A stretch of 41,582 bases of DNA, from contig JAHLVZ010000015.1 of assembly GCA_019058165.1 (NCBI GenBank), positions 1-41,582 on the forward strand, given 5' to 3'. Below the pieces are notes generated by a model. That model saw only the letters and a program-made list of their open reading frames with translations, had not been told where the DNA came from and made no database searches. Position numbers and translations under genes: made by a program. The stretch is from Candidatus Heimdallarchaeota archaeon (GTDB taxonomy: Archaea > Asgardarchaeota > Heimdallarchaeia > JABLTI01). Of this stretch, positions 24,794 to 37,767 are shown in pieces (within the stretch, counting starts at the first letter, position 1; every line of letters starts with the position of its first letter).

Positions 24794-27544
24794 ATGTATG
24801 TTGGTGCCTTAACATCAAAACGTAAAAATACCAGAAGAAAACAAATTGTTGTTTATCTCATACTTTTATTCATAATAATCCCTGTCTTAAATTTTAAACA
24901 AGAATTCAAAGCTAATTCAATCCCGAATCCATCAGATGATAAACGCTTTGGAATAGAACAAGCTAATGATATGATGAATTTTTCGTTAATTAATAATGAT
25001 TTGAATATTTTCTACAAAGATATTATCATTAAAGATGATTTAGCGATTGTAAATAACAAATTCACGATTATTATATTTAATATTACAAATCAAGAGGAAC
25101 CGAAAATTCTGAGTGAATCAAAAAGATGCATTAATGAAATTATGAAAATGCAAGTAGAGGATGACATGGTATTTATTGGATATGATTTTATCCCTCAGGG
25201 TTCATCTATGGCTAAAATACAAGCATTTAATATTTCAGATTCAACTACGATTGAACCAATTGGTTGTTTTCTTTATTATAGATTCATTGATTTCGTAATA
25301 GAAGGCAATCATGGTTATGTTTCAACACTCAACAACAAGATGTTGATTATTAGTGTTCAAGATCCAACAAATATGTATATTGTTGGTGAATTAGGTGGAT
25401 TCACTAGCGGTATATATAGATTAGTAGTATCTGGAAATAATACAATATTGTATAACAACGAGTACTTTGCATACGTTTTATTTATAGATACTTCAGACAA
25501 AGAAAACCCGACTTTGGCATATTTTTCTACTGACTACCATTCAATCATTGATGCAAGTATTGTTAATGATGTATTATTTCTCTTGAGTACTAATAGTTTA
25601 ATTGCTATTAGAATTTTAGATATCAGCTCACCATTACTATTAAACTCATATTATGTATCATATACTGATTCACTATATATTAATGAGGACATTGTCTTCA
25701 TCGATTCATCAACACGAATTACTATTGTGAATGTGAGTGATGTATTTGACTTTGATTTAATTACCTATCATTTTTTGAAAGATCTTAATGTATCATATGT
25801 GAGTTCTTTAGATTTCCACGGAGACTATATCTACTTTACCTGTGGATTGGGAGGAATTTCGGTCTATAATACTACAGAACAATATAATTTCGAAAAGTTG
25901 GTTCAAACAGGTTTTGAAGATGGAGATGAAATATACTATGAAAATGGTCTCTGCTATATTCTAGAACATGAGAGATTAAATGTACTTAATGCCAGTGATT
26001 TAACCAATCTTACACAAATAGGCTCATATGAATTATCTTCTGCAATAGAAATGGAAATTGAAAGTGATATTGCATTTATTATGACAGCTTCTCGGATTGA
26101 GGTTCTTAACGTCTCAGATCCAACAAATATAACAAAAACTAGTGAAATCAATGTTCTTAGTCCTCGTACTCTGAAAGTAAAGAATGGGCTTGTTTCTGTC
26201 CTTGGTAACGATCTTTTTCTTTATAATGCCACAAATCCGAATGCCATAACTTTACTTGATTATGTATTTGAGATCGATGTCTATGGTAATACAATTGAAA
26301 TGACAAATGAAACTATAATCGTTTCTGATTTTGGAGAGATAATAAGCTTCTTCGACTATAGTAATCCAAGTGATCTTCAATTAATTGATATACTGTATAT
26401 TGAGGAGTACTACAATATTGATAAGACATTCTTGTATGGGAATTACATTTTTGGCGTATCTAATTGGAGAGATGAGATTTTAGTGTTAAATCTAACTTCA
26501 ATAAATAATGTTAACTATTTCACTCTCGGAGAATTCTCTAATGGTTTCAATGACATCTATATTGAAAACGATTTAATGTATCTTACATCATGGTATTCGG
26601 TGTTATCAGTCTATAATATCAGTGACATAAAAGATCCCAGTATTCAAAGCGAAATTGATGTTTTATCACAACCAATCATGGATCAAGGATATAGATTAGC
26701 GGTTGAAAACAACACAATATTCCTCTTGAATGGAGAAGGAGCTTTACAGATTATTGGTTTAGATTCCGACAATGATTATTTAGCTGACTATCTTGAAGAG
26801 GAAGTCTACTTAACCACTACTGGATTACAAGATAGCGATAGTGATCTAATAGTGGATGGATATGAGGTCTATTACGGTTTGGATCCGCTCAATGCAAGTG
26901 ATGCTAGTGAAGATTTCGATAATGACAATTTGACAAATCTTGAGGAATTCCTGTATTTCTCCAATCCCACACTAAAAGATAGTGATTCGGATTGCCTATT
27001 AGATAATGATGAAATTACTATTTACAATACAAATCTTACAGCTTCTGACACTGACCTTGATTTACTGGTTGATGGATATGAAGTATTGGTATCATTTACA
27101 AATCCGTTGCTAAATGATTCAGATTTCGATGGTCTACTAGACGGAGAAGAAGTACTGTTTCATTCTACTGATCCTACAAACAATGATACGGATGCTGATG
27201 GTATGGATGATTATTTCGAAGTCCAGTATCATTTGAATCCCCTTGATCCATCTGATAAGTATCTGGATCTTGATTTGGACGGGTTATTAAATATCGAAGA
27301 ATACTCCTATAACACTAGGCCTGATAGTGCAGATACAGATCGTGATTCTTACTCTGATTTCGAAGAAATCGAATTTGGTTCAGATCCTTTAGATCCTCTC
27401 GATTTTCCCGATTACTCGAAAACATTTACAACGTCTTTTGCTGGGTTTGAAGGTTTTACAGTTTTAATTACAACAATTTCTGTATTTAGTATAATTACGA
27501 TTTATATTCAATTCAGAAAGAATAGAGGTGAGAGAGTTGACTAA
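24794..27544 (+). CDS. Membrane-anchored LVIVD-repeat protein with Ca2+-binding-repeat stalk
   Basis: Large cell-surface protein. A basic N-terminus (KRKNTRRK) and a hydrophobic segment (about 18-33) form the export signal. Residues 60-650 hold about 13 LVIVD-type repeats of roughly 40-45 aa, each with a strand like IEVLNVSDPTNITK, predicted to fold as beta-propeller(s). Residues 655-885 contain about nine acidic D-x-D-x-D repeats of the thrombospondin type 3/EF-like kind (for example DSDSDLIVDGYE, FDGLLDGEEV), likely to bind Ca2+ and make a rigid stalk. A membrane helix near 893-910 and RKNRGERVD anchor it. Many N-x-S/T sites suggest heavy glycosylation. The stop overlaps the start of the next gene. 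Confidence 0.85.
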   Translation: MYVGALTSKRKNTRRKQIVVYLILLFIIIPVLNFKQEFKANSIPNPSDDKRFGIEQANDMMNFSLINNDLNIFYKDIIIKDDLAIVNNKFTIIIFNITNQEEPKILSESKRCINEIMKMQVEDDMVFIGYDFIPQGSSMAKIQAFNISDSTTIEPIGCFLYYRFIDFVIEGNHGYVSTLNNKMLIISVQDPTNMYIVGELGGFTSGIYRLVVSGNNTILYNNEYFAYVLFIDTSDKENPTLAYFSTDYHSIIDASIVNDVLFLLSTNSLIAIRILDISSPLLLNSYYVSYTDSLYINEDIVFIDSSTRITIVNVSDVFDFDLITYHFLKDLNVSYVSSLDFHGDYIYFTCGLGGISVYNTTEQYNFEKLVQTGFEDGDEIYYENGLCYILEHERLNVLNASDLTNLTQIGSYELSSAIEMEIESDIAFIMTASRIEVLNVSDPTNITKTSEINVLSPRTLKVKNGLVSVLGNDLFLYNATNPNAITLLDYVFEIDVYGNTIEMTNETIIVSDFGEIISFFDYSNPSDLQLIDILYIEEYYNIDKTFLYGNYIFGVSNWRDEILVLNLTSINNVNYFTLGEFSNGFNDIYIENDLMYLTSWYSVLSVYNISDIKDPSIQSEIDVLSQPIMDQGYRLAVENNTIFLLNGEGALQIIGLDSDNDYLADYLEEEVYLTTTGLQDSDSDLIVDGYEVYYGLDPLNASDASEDFDNDNLTNLEEFLYFSNPTLKDSDSDCLLDNDEITIYNTNLTASDTDLDLLVDGYEVLVSFTNPLLNDSDFDGLLDGEEVLFHSTDPTNNDTDADGMDDYFEVQYHLNPLDPSDKYLDLDLDGLLNIEEYSYNTRPDSADTDRDSYSDFEEIEFGSDPLDPLDFPDYSKTFTTSFAGFEGFTVLITTISVFSIITIYIQFRKNRGERVD

Positions 27545-29690
27545 GAAACAAAAACCGATTGTGTATATGATTTGTTTATTGATTACTTTGCAACTATTTA
27601 GTTTGTCTTTTAATGCAAAGGGATTACAGGATCAAGAGCAAATAAGTTATTCATCAGATGCTACAGTAGATGATTCTTTGATAGATGCGGTTAGTTGTTC
27701 TGAACTAGCTCAATGGGGCAAAAATTATGGATATGCCTATGATATCTTCATTCAAGAGTCTCTTTTGAGCACTATTGCATACTTAGCTGTAGGGTCAGGA
27801 GGATTACTAATTTATGATGTATCAAACCCCTCTAATCCGAAATTGATTGGGGAATATAGCGATGGTGATGCAATTACTCGAGTAATTGTTGTTAAGAAAT
27901 ATGCATTCGTTACTGGTGGCGATTTTGGTTTAAAAATCTTGGATATTAGTACAGCAAAGAAGCCCAAAAAAGTTATGGATTTTTCCGATGTTGAATATAT
28001 GTCAGACATTGAAATATCTGGTGACTACCTTTTTGGTTTGCAATGGGGGAGTATGCTGCATATAATTGATGTTAGTGATCCACGAAATCCAAATTTGCTT
28101 AATACATTCGAATTATCAGAAGCTTTTGAAGTTGATGATATTAAACTAAGAGATAATTACTTGTATTCAATTAGTTCTGATGGTGTTGAGATTTTCGAGA
28201 TAAGTAATCCTAATGATCCAACTCACTTTGAAACATGGGAATTTGATGTTAGCATTCATAGCTTTGATTTCTATAGATTAACAGCAATTATTTCATCGTC
28301 TTCCGAAGTTTTCTTTTATAGCATGGCTAATCCCTCTAATTTTACTTTAATTTCAAGATATCGAGATATTCGTTGCTCTCCTAGTTTCATTGAAGTGTAT
28401 GATCATTACGCTTTCAGTTTTGGCGAAGAAGGTTTCATATGTTTTGATGTTGAAAATCCCTTTAGTATTGTCAAAGTTAATGAGTTCATTAAAGAATATG
28501 GATATAGTCTCGGTGGATTCAAGCATGATGAATTTGTTTACTTGATTGATAACTTTAGGGGATTTGAAATTATTTACATTGGAGACTTAACCTCCAACCC
28601 GTTATTGGCTGGTCGAATTATTACCTTAGGACTTACATTGGATACCTTTGTTCAGGGAGATTTAGCTTATGTTACAAGTTTCTATGGCGGTTTAGAAATA
28701 CTTGATATTGGTAATCCCACGAATCCTAAATTAATTACTAGATATGTTGACAGATCAAGTTATTATGTATGTTTGTATTTGGAAAACTCGAAGTTGTATT
28801 TAGCTAACTATATTACATTTACTATTGATATTCTTGATGTTTCAGATCCTAGCGTACCGGTTCGAATTAGCTCAACATTTGATGACAGTTTTATTTTTTG
28901 GCCTGGATCAAAAATAATGGTAAGAGATAACATTGCATATATTAGTGAATTCTATAGTTTTGCACACATATTTGAGGGAGTTTTGCATATAGTTGACTGT
29001 ACAAATCCTGCTAATGTAACAAAAATTACTGCTTTGACAGGTTTAGATGCTTATTTCTATGATTTCGCTTTAATGGGGAATCATCTCTTTTTAGCTACTT
29101 CTCTAGGTTTATTCATATATGAAATAGATAATGATTACAATCTGACATTGGTGTCTGAATACTCTGATTTATCCTCAAATATCGGAGGAGTATTTGTAGA
29201 AAATAACCATGCTTTTCTAGCAGCCCGTGATTATGGGCTTATTGTATTAGATGTGAGTGATATAGAAAATCCTGTTCTCGCAAGTAGCTATGAAACTGGT
29301 GGAGGTTCTATTTACGAATATGGTGGATATAATATCTATCTGGAGAATAATATTGTTTACATGTCGGATTACAATGATGGGCTACTTGTATTTGATGGTA
29401 GTGACCCTAATAATCCAATTGCCATTGGTAGCTATCAGCGATATGAATATGATCCATATACTTACGGTGGCGGACTCAAGGAGGTTTACTTCTATGAAAT
29501 ATTTGCATATAACGATGTAGTTTATCTTTCCTCTGGCCAAACTGGATTACTTATTGTTCATCATGATGATCTGCCAACTCATTGGATGAGCTTACAGAAT
29601 AAAATTATCATTTCAGTTTCTATAACAGGTCCACTCATTCTTGGTGGGTTAATAGTATTTGTTATTTTACGAATTAAAAAGCGAAGGTAA
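27537..29690 (+). CDS. Membrane-anchored LVIVD-repeat propeller protein
   Basis: Partner of the upstream surface protein. Signal/hydrophobic segment at about residues 8-25, then about 13-14 LVIVD repeats (LLIYDVSNPSNPKLIGEY, LEILDIGNPTNPKLITRY, LLVFDGSDPNNPIAIGSY and similar) across residues 70-690, and a C-terminal membrane helix (about 698-714) ending in RIKKRR. It lacks the acidic Ca2+-binding repeats of its neighbour. The frame starts at a GTG at 27528, but GAGGTGA (27525-27531) stands 5 nt before a TTG at 27537, so that start is preferred; both overlap the previous gene, indicating translational coupling. Function is unknown; LVIVD propellers are common on archaeal and bacterial surfaces and likely bind ligands or other proteins. 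Confidence 0.85.
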   Translation: MTKKQKPIVYMICLLITLQLFSLSFNAKGLQDQEQISYSSDATVDDSLIDAVSCSELAQWGKNYGYAYDIFIQESLLSTIAYLAVGSGGLLIYDVSNPSNPKLIGEYSDGDAITRVIVVKKYAFVTGGDFGLKILDISTAKKPKKVMDFSDVEYMSDIEISGDYLFGLQWGSMLHIIDVSDPRNPNLLNTFELSEAFEVDDIKLRDNYLYSISSDGVEIFEISNPNDPTHFETWEFDVSIHSFDFYRLTAIISSSSEVFFYSMANPSNFTLISRYRDIRCSPSFIEVYDHYAFSFGEEGFICFDVENPFSIVKVNEFIKEYGYSLGGFKHDEFVYLIDNFRGFEIIYIGDLTSNPLLAGRIITLGLTLDTFVQGDLAYVTSFYGGLEILDIGNPTNPKLITRYVDRSSYYVCLYLENSKLYLANYITFTIDILDVSDPSVPVRISSTFDDSFIFWPGSKIMVRDNIAYISEFYSFAHIFEGVLHIVDCTNPANVTKITALTGLDAYFYDFALMGNHLFLATSLGLFIYEIDNDYNLTLVSEYSDLSSNIGGVFVENNHAFLAARDYGLIVLDVSDIENPVLASSYETGGGSIYEYGGYNIYLENNIVYMSDYNDGLLVFDGSDPNNPIAIGSYQRYEYDPYTYGGGLKEVYFYEIFAYNDVVYLSSGQTGLLIVHHDDLPTHWMSLQNKIIISVSITGPLILGGLIVFVILRIKKRR

Positions 29691-31593: not shown

Positions 31594-31777
31594 AACTCAG
31601 AGACCTTTTTTGGCGTTCAGAACGAACACCATTCACCATTCTTATTTTCGCAACTAATCATTTATTATTGTTTCGTCGGTAAAATTCGGAAGCTATATAT
31701 TCGAAAACTTAGTTATGAATACGTAGACTAGTAATTATAATGCGAATTATTCCTAGTAGTTGATTGGTTGGATAAGA

Positions 31778-33520
31778 ATGAAGAAGCATTATGCAGATTT
31801 TCTTAAGAATCTCAAGAAAACCAAGACTACAAGAGAAGCTAATTCCCTTATCCAATCAGTTTCTCAAATTGACAATCTCTTGACTTCTTTGAAAGATAGA
31901 GTAGAATTTATCAACTACCTTGAAAAAGCAGAGACAAAAGTTGAGTCAGGATTAAACTCCAAAACGAAAGAATGGGGAGATGTGCAAACACCAAATTTCC
32001 TAGTGGAAAAAATTTATCAAATACTTACAAAGGCTAATCTAAATCCTGAAATCATAATTGAACCGACTTTCGGAACAGGAAATTTCATTCTAAGTGCTCC
32101 CAAATTTTTCAAAAATATAAAATTAATTTACGGAGTTGAAATCCAGAAGCCACATTTATGGTTTTCTGCTTTCAAGATAATAAGAAATATGCTTAGCCAA
32201 GGAATCCAGAATGAAAATAAATATAAAATAAAATTAATCCATGATGATATTTTCAAACATGAATTTAATCTTGAAGTTTTGAATGAAAAAGAATCCACCA
32301 TTCTTATTGTAGGGAATCCTCCCTGGGTAACAATTTCAGAATTATCATCTCTAAATTCAAGCAATTTACCGTTGAAATCCAATATTAAGGGATTCAAAGG
32401 AATTGACGCTCTTACAGGAAAGAGTAATTTTGATATTACAGAAACAATCATTGTCAAGATGATTAGAATTTTTTCTAAATTCCAAGGAAAAATCGCTTTC
32501 TTATGCAAGAATACAGTTGTTAGAAATATTCTCAAAGAAACAATTAATTCAAATTTAAGCATTTCAAATATTCGTGCTCTGAGTTTCAATGCCAAGGAAT
32601 ATTTTGGTAAAACCTGCAATGCTTCACTACTAGTTGCTGATCTAACTTCTAATAAAAGTGACACCTACTGTACTATAGCAAAAATTGAAGAACCAAAAAA
32701 AATCATCAAAAAAATTGGTTGGCACAATAATCGATTTGTTTCTGATATTGAAAAATACAATAAGCATTCCCAATTTGAAGGACAATTTCCGATTAATTGG
32801 CGTCAAGGCATAAAACATGATTGTGCTAGTATCCTAGAATTAGGATTAACAAGTGATGGAAAACTAATCAATAAGAATAATGATGTTGTCGATGTCGAAG
32901 AAGAACTGGTTTATCCCTTACTAAAAGGATCTTCTCTTAGGAAATTCTTTGCTAAAGATATCTCGAGAAGATTAATCTTAACTCAAACAAAATTATCAGA
33001 AAGTACAGACAAAATCAAAGTGAAACATCCAAAAACATGGCAATATCTAATGAAAAATAAAAAAGCATTTACCAAAAGGAAATCTCGAGTATTTAATAAT
33101 AAACCATCTTTCTCTATTTTTGGAGTTGGAGAGTATACTTTATCTCCTTACAAAGTAGCTATTGCAGGATTCTATAAGAATCCCATTTTCGCTTTCGTTA
33201 CTCCATATAATGGAAAACCAGTTTTATTTGATGATACTTGTTATTATTTGAGCTTCCAAGATTACAATGATGCACTATTCATTTGTTCTGTACTAAACAG
33301 CAAAGCTCTCAAAGATTATCTGGAGTCTATAGTATTCACAGATTCAAAAAGACCTTTCACAAAAGAAATTTTAATGAGGATAAACTTAGCTCAATTAATT
33401 AAAAACACTACTTTTGCAACGCTCAAAGAAATATGGATTGCTAACAACTTTGAACCAAGTGTGAAGATTTCTGAAACTGATTTTAAGAATTTCCAGATAA
33501 AAAACACAAATTTACTATAA
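31778..33520 (+). CDS. Orphan N6-adenine DNA methyltransferase
   Basis: Gamma-type adenine-N6 DNA methyltransferase: the lead-in QTPNFLVEKI, SAM motif I IIEPTFGTGNF (E95 to about F103), the acidic second-strand region YGVEIQKPHLW, motif III HDDIF, and catalytic motif IV VGNPPW (N180-P181-P182-W183). Residues 330-580 are a C-terminal region that includes YPLLKGSSLRKF and FICSVLNSKALKDYLES, typical of the target-recognition part of type IIG/Eco57I-like and TaqI-like enzymes. The restriction nuclease domain or gene expected for a full system is absent on both sides, so it is a solitary methyltransferase or the remains of a system. The frame reaches a TTG at 31760; ATG at 31778 is preferred. Confidence 0.82.
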   Translation: MKKHYADFLKNLKKTKTTREANSLIQSVSQIDNLLTSLKDRVEFINYLEKAETKVESGLNSKTKEWGDVQTPNFLVEKIYQILTKANLNPEIIIEPTFGTGNFILSAPKFFKNIKLIYGVEIQKPHLWFSAFKIIRNMLSQGIQNENKYKIKLIHDDIFKHEFNLEVLNEKESTILIVGNPPWVTISELSSLNSSNLPLKSNIKGFKGIDALTGKSNFDITETIIVKMIRIFSKFQGKIAFLCKNTVVRNILKETINSNLSISNIRALSFNAKEYFGKTCNASLLVADLTSNKSDTYCTIAKIEEPKKIIKKIGWHNNRFVSDIEKYNKHSQFEGQFPINWRQGIKHDCASILELGLTSDGKLINKNNDVVDVEEELVYPLLKGSSLRKFFAKDISRRLILTQTKLSESTDKIKVKHPKTWQYLMKNKKAFTKRKSRVFNNKPSFSIFGVGEYTLSPYKVAIAGFYKNPIFAFVTPYNGKPVLFDDTCYYLSFQDYNDALFICSVLNSKALKDYLESIVFTDSKRPFTKEILMRINLAQLIKNTTFATLKEIWIANNFEPSVKISETDFKNFQIKNTNLL

Positions 33521-34954: not shown

Positions 34955-36472
34955 CTAAGGTTCATTCTTTAATGGATGTCTGGTTGGTGTCTCAAAAAGA
35001 TAATCGAGATCAGGTCGATTTTCAATTGCTTTCCTTATTGCCATCACTGTTGCTTTTCGATTATTCACATAGACTCTATTCCTTGAGACTGCTGTTGGAT
35101 GAACAAAGACAGAGGCAATTATGACCAAATCATTCACATATTTTTCTGGAATGAATCCATCTTGCACACAGGTAGTAACTGCTTTTGCTACTCCAGCTTG
35201 CACTGGACCGAATACCATTGATGCTTGTCTTAGGTTTCTAATAAAGACTTTAGGAACTAGGAGGGTATCTGGTTTCACTGCTTCGTTTGTTTCATGTAAA
35301 GCTAAAAGCGGTTCATGCCCCTCTACTTTTGAGGGATCATCTTTTACAAGGGCAAGAGCTTTTGCAAATGCTATACCAACTGGTCCATCTTTTGGACCAA
35401 TTATAAGATCGACATGAGCCATCTCTGGTCGATCACCACCAAAGAATCCTTCACCGACAAGTAATTTCTTTTGCAGAATAGTCTCAGCAGTAACATCAAT
35501 TTGTCCGAATCTTTCCTCGATTTTCTTTGGATCTTCTGGTAAAGCAATAATTGGTTTTACTTTGATTTTTCCTAGTCTTTCTAGTTCAAGTCTTAATTCA
35601 GATCGTAACTCATGACTAATGCTTCCACCAATTTCAAGAGGTAATCTTGGTTTCCGAACTTTTATTCCCATCATATTGAGTGCTTCTTTAGTTCCTGCAC
35701 CACCAGTTTTCACAATAATCCGAGTTATTTTGTGGATTTCCATCTCAGTTTTACGTGCTTCGTCTAGTTTTCCGGCTTCAACTAATTTCTTGATTTTCAC
35801 CCAATAATCACCGATGAAATTAGCAGAGGCTAAGATACAACCATCTACACCTGCAGCCAGTGCAGGAAAAACGATTTCATCCCAACCACAAAGAATCTTG
35901 AATTCAGGAGCCACAGGTTTTACTCTCTCAAGTATTTCCATCAAGTAAGGCATGTTTCCCCAAGAACACTTCATTCCGACGATATTTTCATGTTCTACTG
36001 CTAAGTCTTCAACTACCATTCTTGGAAGAACAACATCAGTAAGTGCTGGTAGTTGATAAAGCATAATTGGGAAATCAACTTTATTTGCAATTTCTGAATA
36101 ATGCTTATACAACCCTCTTTGTGTTGGTTTCATATAGTATGGAGTTACTATCAGCCCCGCATCAGCACCGACATCCATTGCATGTTTGGTCATTGCTATC
36201 GTTCGTTTTGTGCCACTTGTTCCAGTTCCAGCCATAACATCAACTTTGTCATTAGCTTCATCAACGGCAATTTCTATGATTTTCTTTTGTTCGTCCCAGA
36301 ATAATGATGAAAATTCACCGGTGGATCCAGCTGGGACTATGCCTGTAACACCTAAATCATCGATAACAAATCTGATTAATTTACGATAAGCTTCCTCATC
36401 TACTTCATCTTTCTTAGTAAAAGGAGTAACGAGTGCTGGACTCACTCCTCCTGGTCTAAATTTTTTTGCCAT
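34955..36472 (-). CDS. DHDPS/NAL-superfamily aldolase fused to formaldehyde-activating enzyme (Fae)
   Basis: Two complete enzymes in one chain. Residues 1-305: a DHDPS/N-acetylneuraminate-lyase barrel with AGSTGEFSSL (S50, T51), Tyr139 in MLYQLPALTD and Schiff-base Lys168 in VGMKCSWGN. The Arg that DHDPS uses to hold aspartate semialdehyde (five residues after the Tyr) is Leu144 here, so this is not lysine-pathway DapA. Residues 306-332: linker. Residues 333-505: full-length Fae, with LLVGEGFFGG, MAHVDLIIGPKDGP including the conserved His353, VKPDTLLVPKV, FGPVQAGVAKAV, and the terminal RHPL. Fae condenses formaldehyde with tetrahydromethanopterin. The preceding gene, 14 bp upstream, is an unrecognised protein in the same operon. 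Channelling of formaldehyde from barrel to Fae is inferred. Confidence 0.88.
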   Translation of the reverse strand: MAKKFRPGGVSPALVTPFTKKDEVDEEAYRKLIRFVIDDLGVTGIVPAGSTGEFSSLFWDEQKKIIEIAVDEANDKVDVMAGTGTSGTKRTIAMTKHAMDVGADAGLIVTPYYMKPTQRGLYKHYSEIANKVDFPIMLYQLPALTDVVLPRMVVEDLAVEHENIVGMKCSWGNMPYLMEILERVKPVAPEFKILCGWDEIVFPALAAGVDGCILASANFIGDYWVKIKKLVEAGKLDEARKTEMEIHKITRIIVKTGGAGTKEALNMMGIKVRKPRLPLEIGGSISHELRSELRLELERLGKIKVKPIIALPEDPKKIEERFGQIDVTAETILQKKLLVGEGFFGGDRPEMAHVDLIIGPKDGPVGIAFAKALALVKDDPSKVEGHEPLLALHETNEAVKPDTLLVPKVFIRNLRQASMVFGPVQAGVAKAVTTCVQDGFIPEKYVNDLVIIASVFVHPTAVSRNRVYVNNRKATVMAIRKAIENRPDLDYLFETPTRHPLKNEP

Positions 36473-36486
36473 AAAAATTTCAACTC

Positions 36487-37767
36487 CTACTTGTTTAATT
36501 TCCTTGCTGGAATAACAGATAAGCCATTCTTTGTTAAAGCATCTGCAGTAATGTTCAAAGCATCATGTTTATCCATAAAATTGAGTAGCATATTATCCCA
36601 ATCTCCTGAATCAATCACTTCTTTCTTATCTCGGAAGTAATCCAAAATATCTGATGGATGCTCTCGAGTCTCTTCAACCGCTTGTTTTCCGCCCTCGTGT
36701 TTAGCGCTTATGTTCTTTACTGTCTTAGCTAATTCAACAAGTTCATCAGTTCGATCATACGGTTGTCGTACAATACTCTTCCACGTTTCTACGATATGGT
36801 GTTCAAATCTAACAATGTCCTCAAAACCCCAGTCTTTTCTAAACTCGGCAGTAACTTCCATTGTTTTGTTGTTTACTGAATTTGAAAGATTGAAACCAAT
36901 TAGAGGAGTACTTCCATCATCTCTACTTAGTAGTTTTGCAGTCATTAACGTCCATAAACAAGCATATGGATTATCGTTCCCCATAAATACAGAGATCTTA
37001 AATTCCATATCCACTCCTAGTTTGTGGAGCATGTACCCAAGAATTACTGTTCCAGGATTAATGTTGAGAACTTGCTTAACACCATATTCAGTGTAATAGT
37101 AAAGGAATTCATCAATCCACTTAAGAGCGAAATCATTTGGTTGACCAACTCCGCCAAAATAACCGGTAATTGTTGCAGGGCCACCAAGATGAACATTCAC
37201 AGGAGCACCATCTGGCCCAAGTGATGTGCCTTTAGTATCAAGAGTTTCTACAAAAGAAGCATCAATTAACTGCATTGCAGCTGTCATTGCAAGTAAATCC
37301 CCATCTTCCTCTTGCTCTTTCATTTTCCTGACTCTTATGAATCTACCAGGCATCAAATCTTGCTTTTCAATTGCTCGCTTTGCTTCTGCAATAAAGAATG
37401 GGAAATACTGACAAGCACTGATTTCAAGTGTAACTGCTAAGGATTCATCGAATTTGACCTTCTCAACTTCTTTTCCTAGGATTTTCTTTCGATAATCAGC
37501 AATACTGATGAAAGCGTCTTTATCTCGTTGTTCAACTAGCCAATTGAGATCCTTCACGTATTCAGGTTTCTTCTTTTCTAATCTTGCTAAAATGCTATCA
37601 AGCTTACTAGCTTCAACAGCTTTCTTATTTATTTCATCTACCCCACCGTATTTTTCCACGACAGCAAGTAGATCATCTATCACAGGATTGTTTTCTTTCA
37701 CAAAAAAATCATTGATAGCTTTGAGCTTATCCTCTGATATTAGTAATTTCTTCTTAATATCGGTCAA
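36487..37767 (-). CDS. Unrecognised 426-aa protein, operon partner of the aldolase-Fae fusion
   Basis: I do not recognise this family. It is soluble, without signal peptide or membrane helix. The first 110 residues are helical; residues 110-360 alternate strands and helices in a way that could be a TIM barrel. Likely functional motifs are LEISACQYFPFF (114-125), HLGGPATITGYFGG (193-206), NINPGTVILGYML (235-247), FMGNDNPYA (261-269), GFNLSNSVNN (291-300), VRFEHHIVETWKS (319-331), RQPYDR and SAKHEGGKQ (354-362). Conserved-looking Asn, His and Gly clusters suggest an enzyme acting on a small polar or phosphorylated compound. The start is TTG with AGGGTGT upstream. Being 14 bp before the fusion gene, it probably works in the same pathway, for example by making or using the aldol substrate. 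Confidence 0.7.
   Translation of the reverse strand: MTDIKKKLLISEDKLKAINDFFVKENNPVIDDLLAVVEKYGGVDEINKKAVEASKLDSILARLEKKKPEYVKDLNWLVEQRDKDAFISIADYRKKILGKEVEKVKFDESLAVTLEISACQYFPFFIAEAKRAIEKQDLMPGRFIRVRKMKEQEEDGDLLAMTAAMQLIDASFVETLDTKGTSLGPDGAPVNVHLGGPATITGYFGGVGQPNDFALKWIDEFLYYYTEYGVKQVLNINPGTVILGYMLHKLGVDMEFKISVFMGNDNPYACLWTLMTAKLLSRDDGSTPLIGFNLSNSVNNKTMEVTAEFRKDWGFEDIVRFEHHIVETWKSIVRQPYDRTDELVELAKTVKNISAKHEGGKQAVEETREHPSDILDYFRDKKEVIDSGDWDNMLLNFMDKHDALNITADALTKNGLSVIPARKLNK

Follow-up and report, generated by a model that had tools for sequence, protein, structure and literature searches.

The Fusion Gene and the Window

The window, that is, the whole stretch of 41,582 nucleotides that was analysed, carries on its minus strand a gene in which a DHDPS-type aldolase is joined to a Fae domain, together with the gene of a protein referred to here as PARTNER:

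34955..36472, minus strand: DHDPS-type aldolase and Fae fusion, 505 aa (start codon at 36472, stop at 34955-34957)
35594..36451, minus strand: DHDPS/NAL-type aldolase barrel, residues 8-293 (Pfam; alignment with E. coli DapA, NanA and YagE; structure match)
35459..35593, minus strand: linker, residues 294-338 (gap between the Pfam boundaries; low pLDDT)
34982..35458, minus strand: Fae domain, residues 339-497 (Pfam, NCBIfam, phmmer)
36487..37767, minus strand: PARTNER, 426 aa, 14 bp upstream of the fusion and on the same strand

The 505 codons of the fusion are intact, with no internal stops. Pfam places DHDPS (PF00701) on residues 8-293 far over the cut-off (E 3.7e-73) and Fae (PF08714) on residues 339-497 (E 1.9e-49; 168 bits against a cut-off of 27). 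NCBIfam recognises dapA (TIGR00674, 214 bits, cut-off 206) as well as one_C_fae (TIGR03126, 166 bits, cut-off 118), and phmmer matches the Fae half to M. extorquens Fae 1y5y (E 1.8e-25). Hence, Pfam and NCBIfam confirm within a single ORF what a sequence-only reading of this DNA had claimed, namely an aldolase of the DHDPS superfamily joined to a complete Fae. The barrel has GSTGE at residues 49-53, and a recheck of the numbering found every residue and motif named in that reading at its given position: Tyr139, the Schiff-base Lys168 and Leu144, which occupies the position of DapA Arg138, in the barrel, and the catalytic His353 (His17 of M. extorquens Fae), GPKDGPVG (359-366) and VKPDTL (399-404) in the Fae half. 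The AlphaFold2 model of the barrel is good (pLDDT mostly 72-98 over residues 11-270) and superimposes on M. jannaschii DapA 2yxg with a TM of 0.95. The linker has a low pLDDT, and the Fae half, for which the alignment was shallow, is poorly modelled, so that the identity of Fae rests on sequence and no channel is inferred.

Elsewhere in the window, a 586-aa protein with an NPPW motif (31760-33520, plus strand), whose position near the fusion is conserved within the genus and which has no Pfam match over threshold, looks like an adenine DNA methyltransferase. Two large repeat-rich proteins of 916 and 720 aa lie back to back with overlapping ends at 24794-29690 (plus strand) and are probably surface-exposed.

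Distribution of the Fusion

On contigs of Asgard archaea and Bathyarchaeia, over 60 different fusion ORFs were read. Independent assemblies, chromosome-level records among them, have the two domains in one ORF in several Asgard families and in Bathyarchaeia, which rules out an assembly error at the junction. The search for homologues that might expose such an error, and the mapping of DHDPS-Fae chains to taxa, had both been proposed along with the original claim; the first showed the fusion to be genuine and the second placed it in Asgard families and Bathyarchaeia, the latter holding full-length relatives at 50-56% identity. The fusion is real and conserved, and the pairing of Fae with an aldolase is a theme already known from Fae-Hps.

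Of 228 Asgard genomes, 152 have Fae. The Fae proteins fall by size into one class of ~400-450 aa and another of 490-520 aa, and in loci from many families the larger class proved to be DHDPS and Fae in one frame. Methenyl-H4MPT cyclohydrolase (Mch; H4MPT, tetrahydromethanopterin) tracks Fae across the same genomes (153 positives): it is present in G000 and its genus, and both are missing from G006-G055, which belong to the same class as the window's genome. The window's assembly, ~86% complete, has one Fae copy, and each of the seven sister genomes searched has two. One fusion, in G056, is only 468 aa long, its barrel starting ~37 aa shorter (L034 2438-3844, which is the same contig as L073 5698-7104); this reflects a slip in the assembly or else a genuine deletion.

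The catalytic His of Fae is kept in 54 of 62 aligned sequences, and its loss is confined to one of the two members of tandem pairs. Such pairs of fusions occur in family f28, in f9 (L131) and in the Bathyarchaeon G467 (L097), at loci L064-L071, L097 and L131, and in a tree of the barrels the A and B copies form two clades. Of the f28 copies, A no longer has the Fae His but retains the LEPNL and GPVQSG segments; B retains the His, is missing the LEPNL segment and carries Phe in place of Tyr107 in the barrel. The A member of L131 also lacks the Fae His in the alignment. Such complementary decay is suggestive of a mixed A+B enzyme, and it argues that both activities are still in use.

The Barrel Is Not DapA

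The barrel was aligned with E. coli DapA, NanA and YagE and with 61 fusions. The equivalents of the Schiff-base Lys, Tyr133 and GxTGE are conserved in nearly all 61, and the position of Arg138 is taken by Leu, Cys, Val, Ala, Thr, Met or Phe, never by Arg; NanA and YagE also have Leu there, the corresponding motifs being YQLPALT in the window, YNFPALT in YagE and YNIPALS in NanA. This absence of Arg138 from all fusions makes aspartate semialdehyde unlikely as the acceptor. DapB_C was found in none of nine genomes of the window's genus and is also missing from families f8, f11, f23, f26 and f28. Both observations bear out the earlier proposal that the barrel has a substrate other than that of DapA, and by its sequence the barrel is a pyruvate-type aldolase with an acceptor other than aspartate semialdehyde. 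It is hardly credible that the protein is an ordinary DapA of lysine biosynthesis in which Fae is carried incidentally: the TIGR00674 score barely passes its cut-off and the fusion is the sole DHDPS detected in the Bathyarchaeal chromosome G231, but Arg138 has gone from every fusion, and to the absence of DapB_C from the genus and these families is added that of DapB, undetected in G231.

The fusion also scores below the cut-offs of the profiles for N-acetylneuraminate lyase (TIGR00683, 150 bits against 382), archaeal KDG aldolase (NF040954, 104 against 390) and Fae-Hps (PRK13307, 132 against 274), the last aligning to the Fae part alone, with no Hps domain. A sugar-acid aldolase (KDG/KDX-type), or another pyruvate aldolase with a larger aldehyde, in which Fae would serve for assembly or regulation, is quite improbable. 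Its PALT motif, common to YagE and near that of NanA, would suit such an enzyme; the scores under the NanA and KDG aldolase cut-offs and the widely kept Fae His speak against it, as does an unsystematic look at the neighbourhoods, where no dehydratase or kinase of sugar acids was recognised. The fused Fae, in which the His is retained, points to formaldehyde as the aldehyde.

PARTNER and U310

PARTNER, on which the sequence-only claim about the fusion is silent, has no match in Pfam, NCBIfam or the PDB. Its AlphaFold model is of low confidence (pLDDT 57), and a fold search with it returned only generic TIM barrels (E > 0.008); the modelled fold is probably a (beta/alpha)8 barrel with an N-terminal helical domain, and the near-invariant EHH, KHE and NxH motifs suggest that PARTNER is a TIM-barrel enzyme. 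It adjoins the fusion in both phyla, Asgard and Bathyarchaeia, and is 65-68% identical between the window's genome and Bathyarchaeia, compared with 52-56% for the fusion itself. In 35 of the 40 PARTNER-positive Bathyarchaeia, it lies within 6 kb of a fusion-class Fae and is usually divergently transcribed. A hand count in family f19 found PARTNER in 38 of the 39 genomes with a fusion-class Fae among the matches listed, which reach an E of about 6e-52, and in two of the 26 others.

A second protein adjoins the fusion in L040, L042, L045, L046, L050, L051 and L131:

L040 7009-7947, L045 7201-8139 and L131 4340-5287: U310, an unnamed family of ~312 aa with a weak resemblance to Peptidase_U32

PARTNER is present in 126 and U310 in 12 of the 228 Asgard genomes, never together, and the two swap within a single genus; it looks as if one protein had been replaced by another with the same function. 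Comparison of the two families by hhalign (E 3-6e-4, probability 30-42%) is suggestive of homology only. PARTNER, or U310 in its stead, regularly accompanies the fusion and probably acts on the same metabolites. With PARTNER, the analysis brings to light a conserved protein family without a name or an assigned function.

Homoserine and Threonine Genes near the Fusion and PARTNER

In the Bathyarchaeon G238 (L106), the fusion is followed in a row by thrB (homoserine kinase, 298 bits, cut-off 194) and thrC (threonine synthase, 376 bits, cut-off 167), with ORFs resembling histidine biosynthesis genes upstream on the contig; this adjacency comes from one genome. Threonine synthase homologues also occur near the fusion in L039 and near PARTNER in three f28 loci, which belong to one family and are non-independent. 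A gene of the Ser/Thr dehydratase family adjoins the fusion in two Bathyarchaeia (L221 and L226), and a branched-chain aminotransferase-like gene lies 3-6 kb from it in two genus mates (L033 and L060). In Heimdallarchaeia without Fae and Mch, PARTNER heads clusters of an aspartate-type aminotransferase, a homoserine dehydrogenase (425 bits, cut-off 373) and an aldehyde:ferredoxin oxidoreductase (AOR). An AOR 51-53% identical to theirs lies beside PARTNER and/or the fusion in the Bathyarchaeia L039, L104 and L230.

The compound common to these neighbours would be homoserine, together with the keto acid 4-hydroxy-2-oxobutanoate (HOB). As HOB is the aldol of pyruvate and formaldehyde, the neighbours fit HOB as the substrate of the barrel, and the sequence-only guess at HOB gains independent support from the homoserine dehydrogenase and aminotransferase by PARTNER and from ThrB-ThrC by the fusion. 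The former link runs via PARTNER in genomes that lack the fusion and in which no close DHDPS homologue was found, so the pathway there must differ, and the aminotransferase and homoserine dehydrogenase could represent plain aspartate-family biosynthesis.

Another oxo-acid that yields formaldehyde, either ketopantoate (from 2-oxoisovalerate and formaldehyde) or a 2-oxobutanoate adduct, is an improbable substrate. The aminotransferase-like gene in L033 and L060, the dehydratase-family gene in the two Bathyarchaeia and the failure of an E. coli PanB query to detect PanB in G231 are in line with it, but homoserine and threonine links are more frequent, and no pantothenate genes were recognised with that query around any fusion examined.

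A Proposed Exchange of Formaldehyde between HOB and H4MPT

We infer that the fusion is a pyruvate-type aldolase that exchanges formaldehyde with H4MPT through its own Fae domain, with HOB as the most likely oxo-acid; our confidence in this reading is about even. As a class-I (Schiff-base) aldolase, the barrel would form or cleave the bond that joins formaldehyde to a 2-oxo acid; the most probable reaction is pyruvate + formaldehyde <-> HOB. The Fae domain would exchange this formaldehyde with H4MPT, so that free formaldehyde need not accumulate, and a transaminase would join HOB and homoserine. The fusion would thereby connect homoserine and threonine metabolism with the H4MPT one-carbon pool. 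Fae-Hps, in which Fae is likewise joined to a formaldehyde-making aldolase, provides a precedent that supports this reading.

The evidence on direction is divided. The equilibrium of Fae lies towards methylene-H4MPT, and cleavage of HOB would be favoured thermodynamically because Fae pulls it. The fusion-thrB-thrC cluster favours the direction of synthesis, and homoserine synthesis from pyruvate and a C1 unit fits this cluster equally well as the cleavage assumed earlier. In an assimilatory version, Fae would free formaldehyde from methylene-H4MPT and the barrel would add it to pyruvate, giving HOB and then homoserine as a precursor of threonine and methionine, so that homoserine dehydrogenase would be replaced. 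This version is possible, though doubtful. In L106 the fusion stands where a hom gene might be expected, and engineered E. coli can produce homoserine from pyruvate and formaldehyde by this route (PMC8879981).

Queries from E. coli and Heimdall were run against the chromosome of G231 (1.36 Mb, read stretch by stretch, 22 kb masked). They detected no aspartate kinase, Asd, homoserine dehydrogenase, PanB or DapB, of which divergent archaeal versions could escape them; SHMT is present. These absences speak against a classical homoserine route in G231, and those of homoserine dehydrogenase and aspartate kinase favour the assimilatory version. However, the same queries found no convincing homoserine kinase either, and the organism may be a plain auxotroph; this point and the Fae equilibrium weigh against assimilation. 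As far as these queries reach, G231 has no evident source or sink of homoserine, which also counts against the proposed exchange in general. The gene set of G231 fits the synthesis and the breakdown of homoserine alike and does not decide the direction. Rather doubtful, in our estimation, is a complete natural route in Asgard archaea and Bathyarchaeia from methylene-H4MPT through formaldehyde, HOB and homoserine to threonine, with the fusion as a dedicated enzyme and PARTNER as an entirely new enzyme family; such a route would be the counterpart in nature of the synthetic homoserine cycle.

Comparison with Known Systems

No published description of a DHDPS-Fae fusion or of a natural HOB route was found in the literature searched. 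Bathyarchaeal Fae genes have been taken to indicate methylotrophy or RuBisCO-linked metabolism (e.g. PMC11631310). The fusion, which many Asgard and Bathyarchaeal genomes have as one of two proteins with a Fae domain, is an enzyme of another kind and is associated with amino-acid genes.

The barrel shares with DapA, NanA and YagE the GxTGE motif, the equivalents of Tyr133 and Lys161 and the fold, as the match to 2yxg indicates. In contrast to DapA, the fusion lacks Arg138, carries Fae, belongs to a genus without DapB and has another gene context. Like the fusion, Fae-Hps (PRK13307) combines in one chain Fae and a TIM-barrel lyase that yields formaldehyde, which it is thought to catch as methylene-H4MPT (PMC5241800). 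However, the barrel of the fusion is of the Schiff-base DHDPS type and not Hps, the domain order is reversed, with Fae at the C-terminus, and the fusion is a separate second gene, with different neighbours, in genomes that also have the Fae protein of ~400-450 aa.

A parallel to the proposed chemistry is the HOB aldolase step in the synthetic homoserine cycle of E. coli, which likewise runs pyruvate + formaldehyde <-> HOB <-> homoserine, and for which RhmA is described only as promiscuous and HOB as non-native (PMC8879981). Unlike RhmA, the fusion would be a natural enzyme dedicated to this reaction and equipped with a carrier domain of its own. Should HOB prove to be the substrate, a reaction hitherto described as promiscuous and engineered would have its dedicated enzyme in nature, and threonine and homoserine metabolism would be coupled to the C1 carrier of archaea in the lineage that is closest to the eukaryotes.
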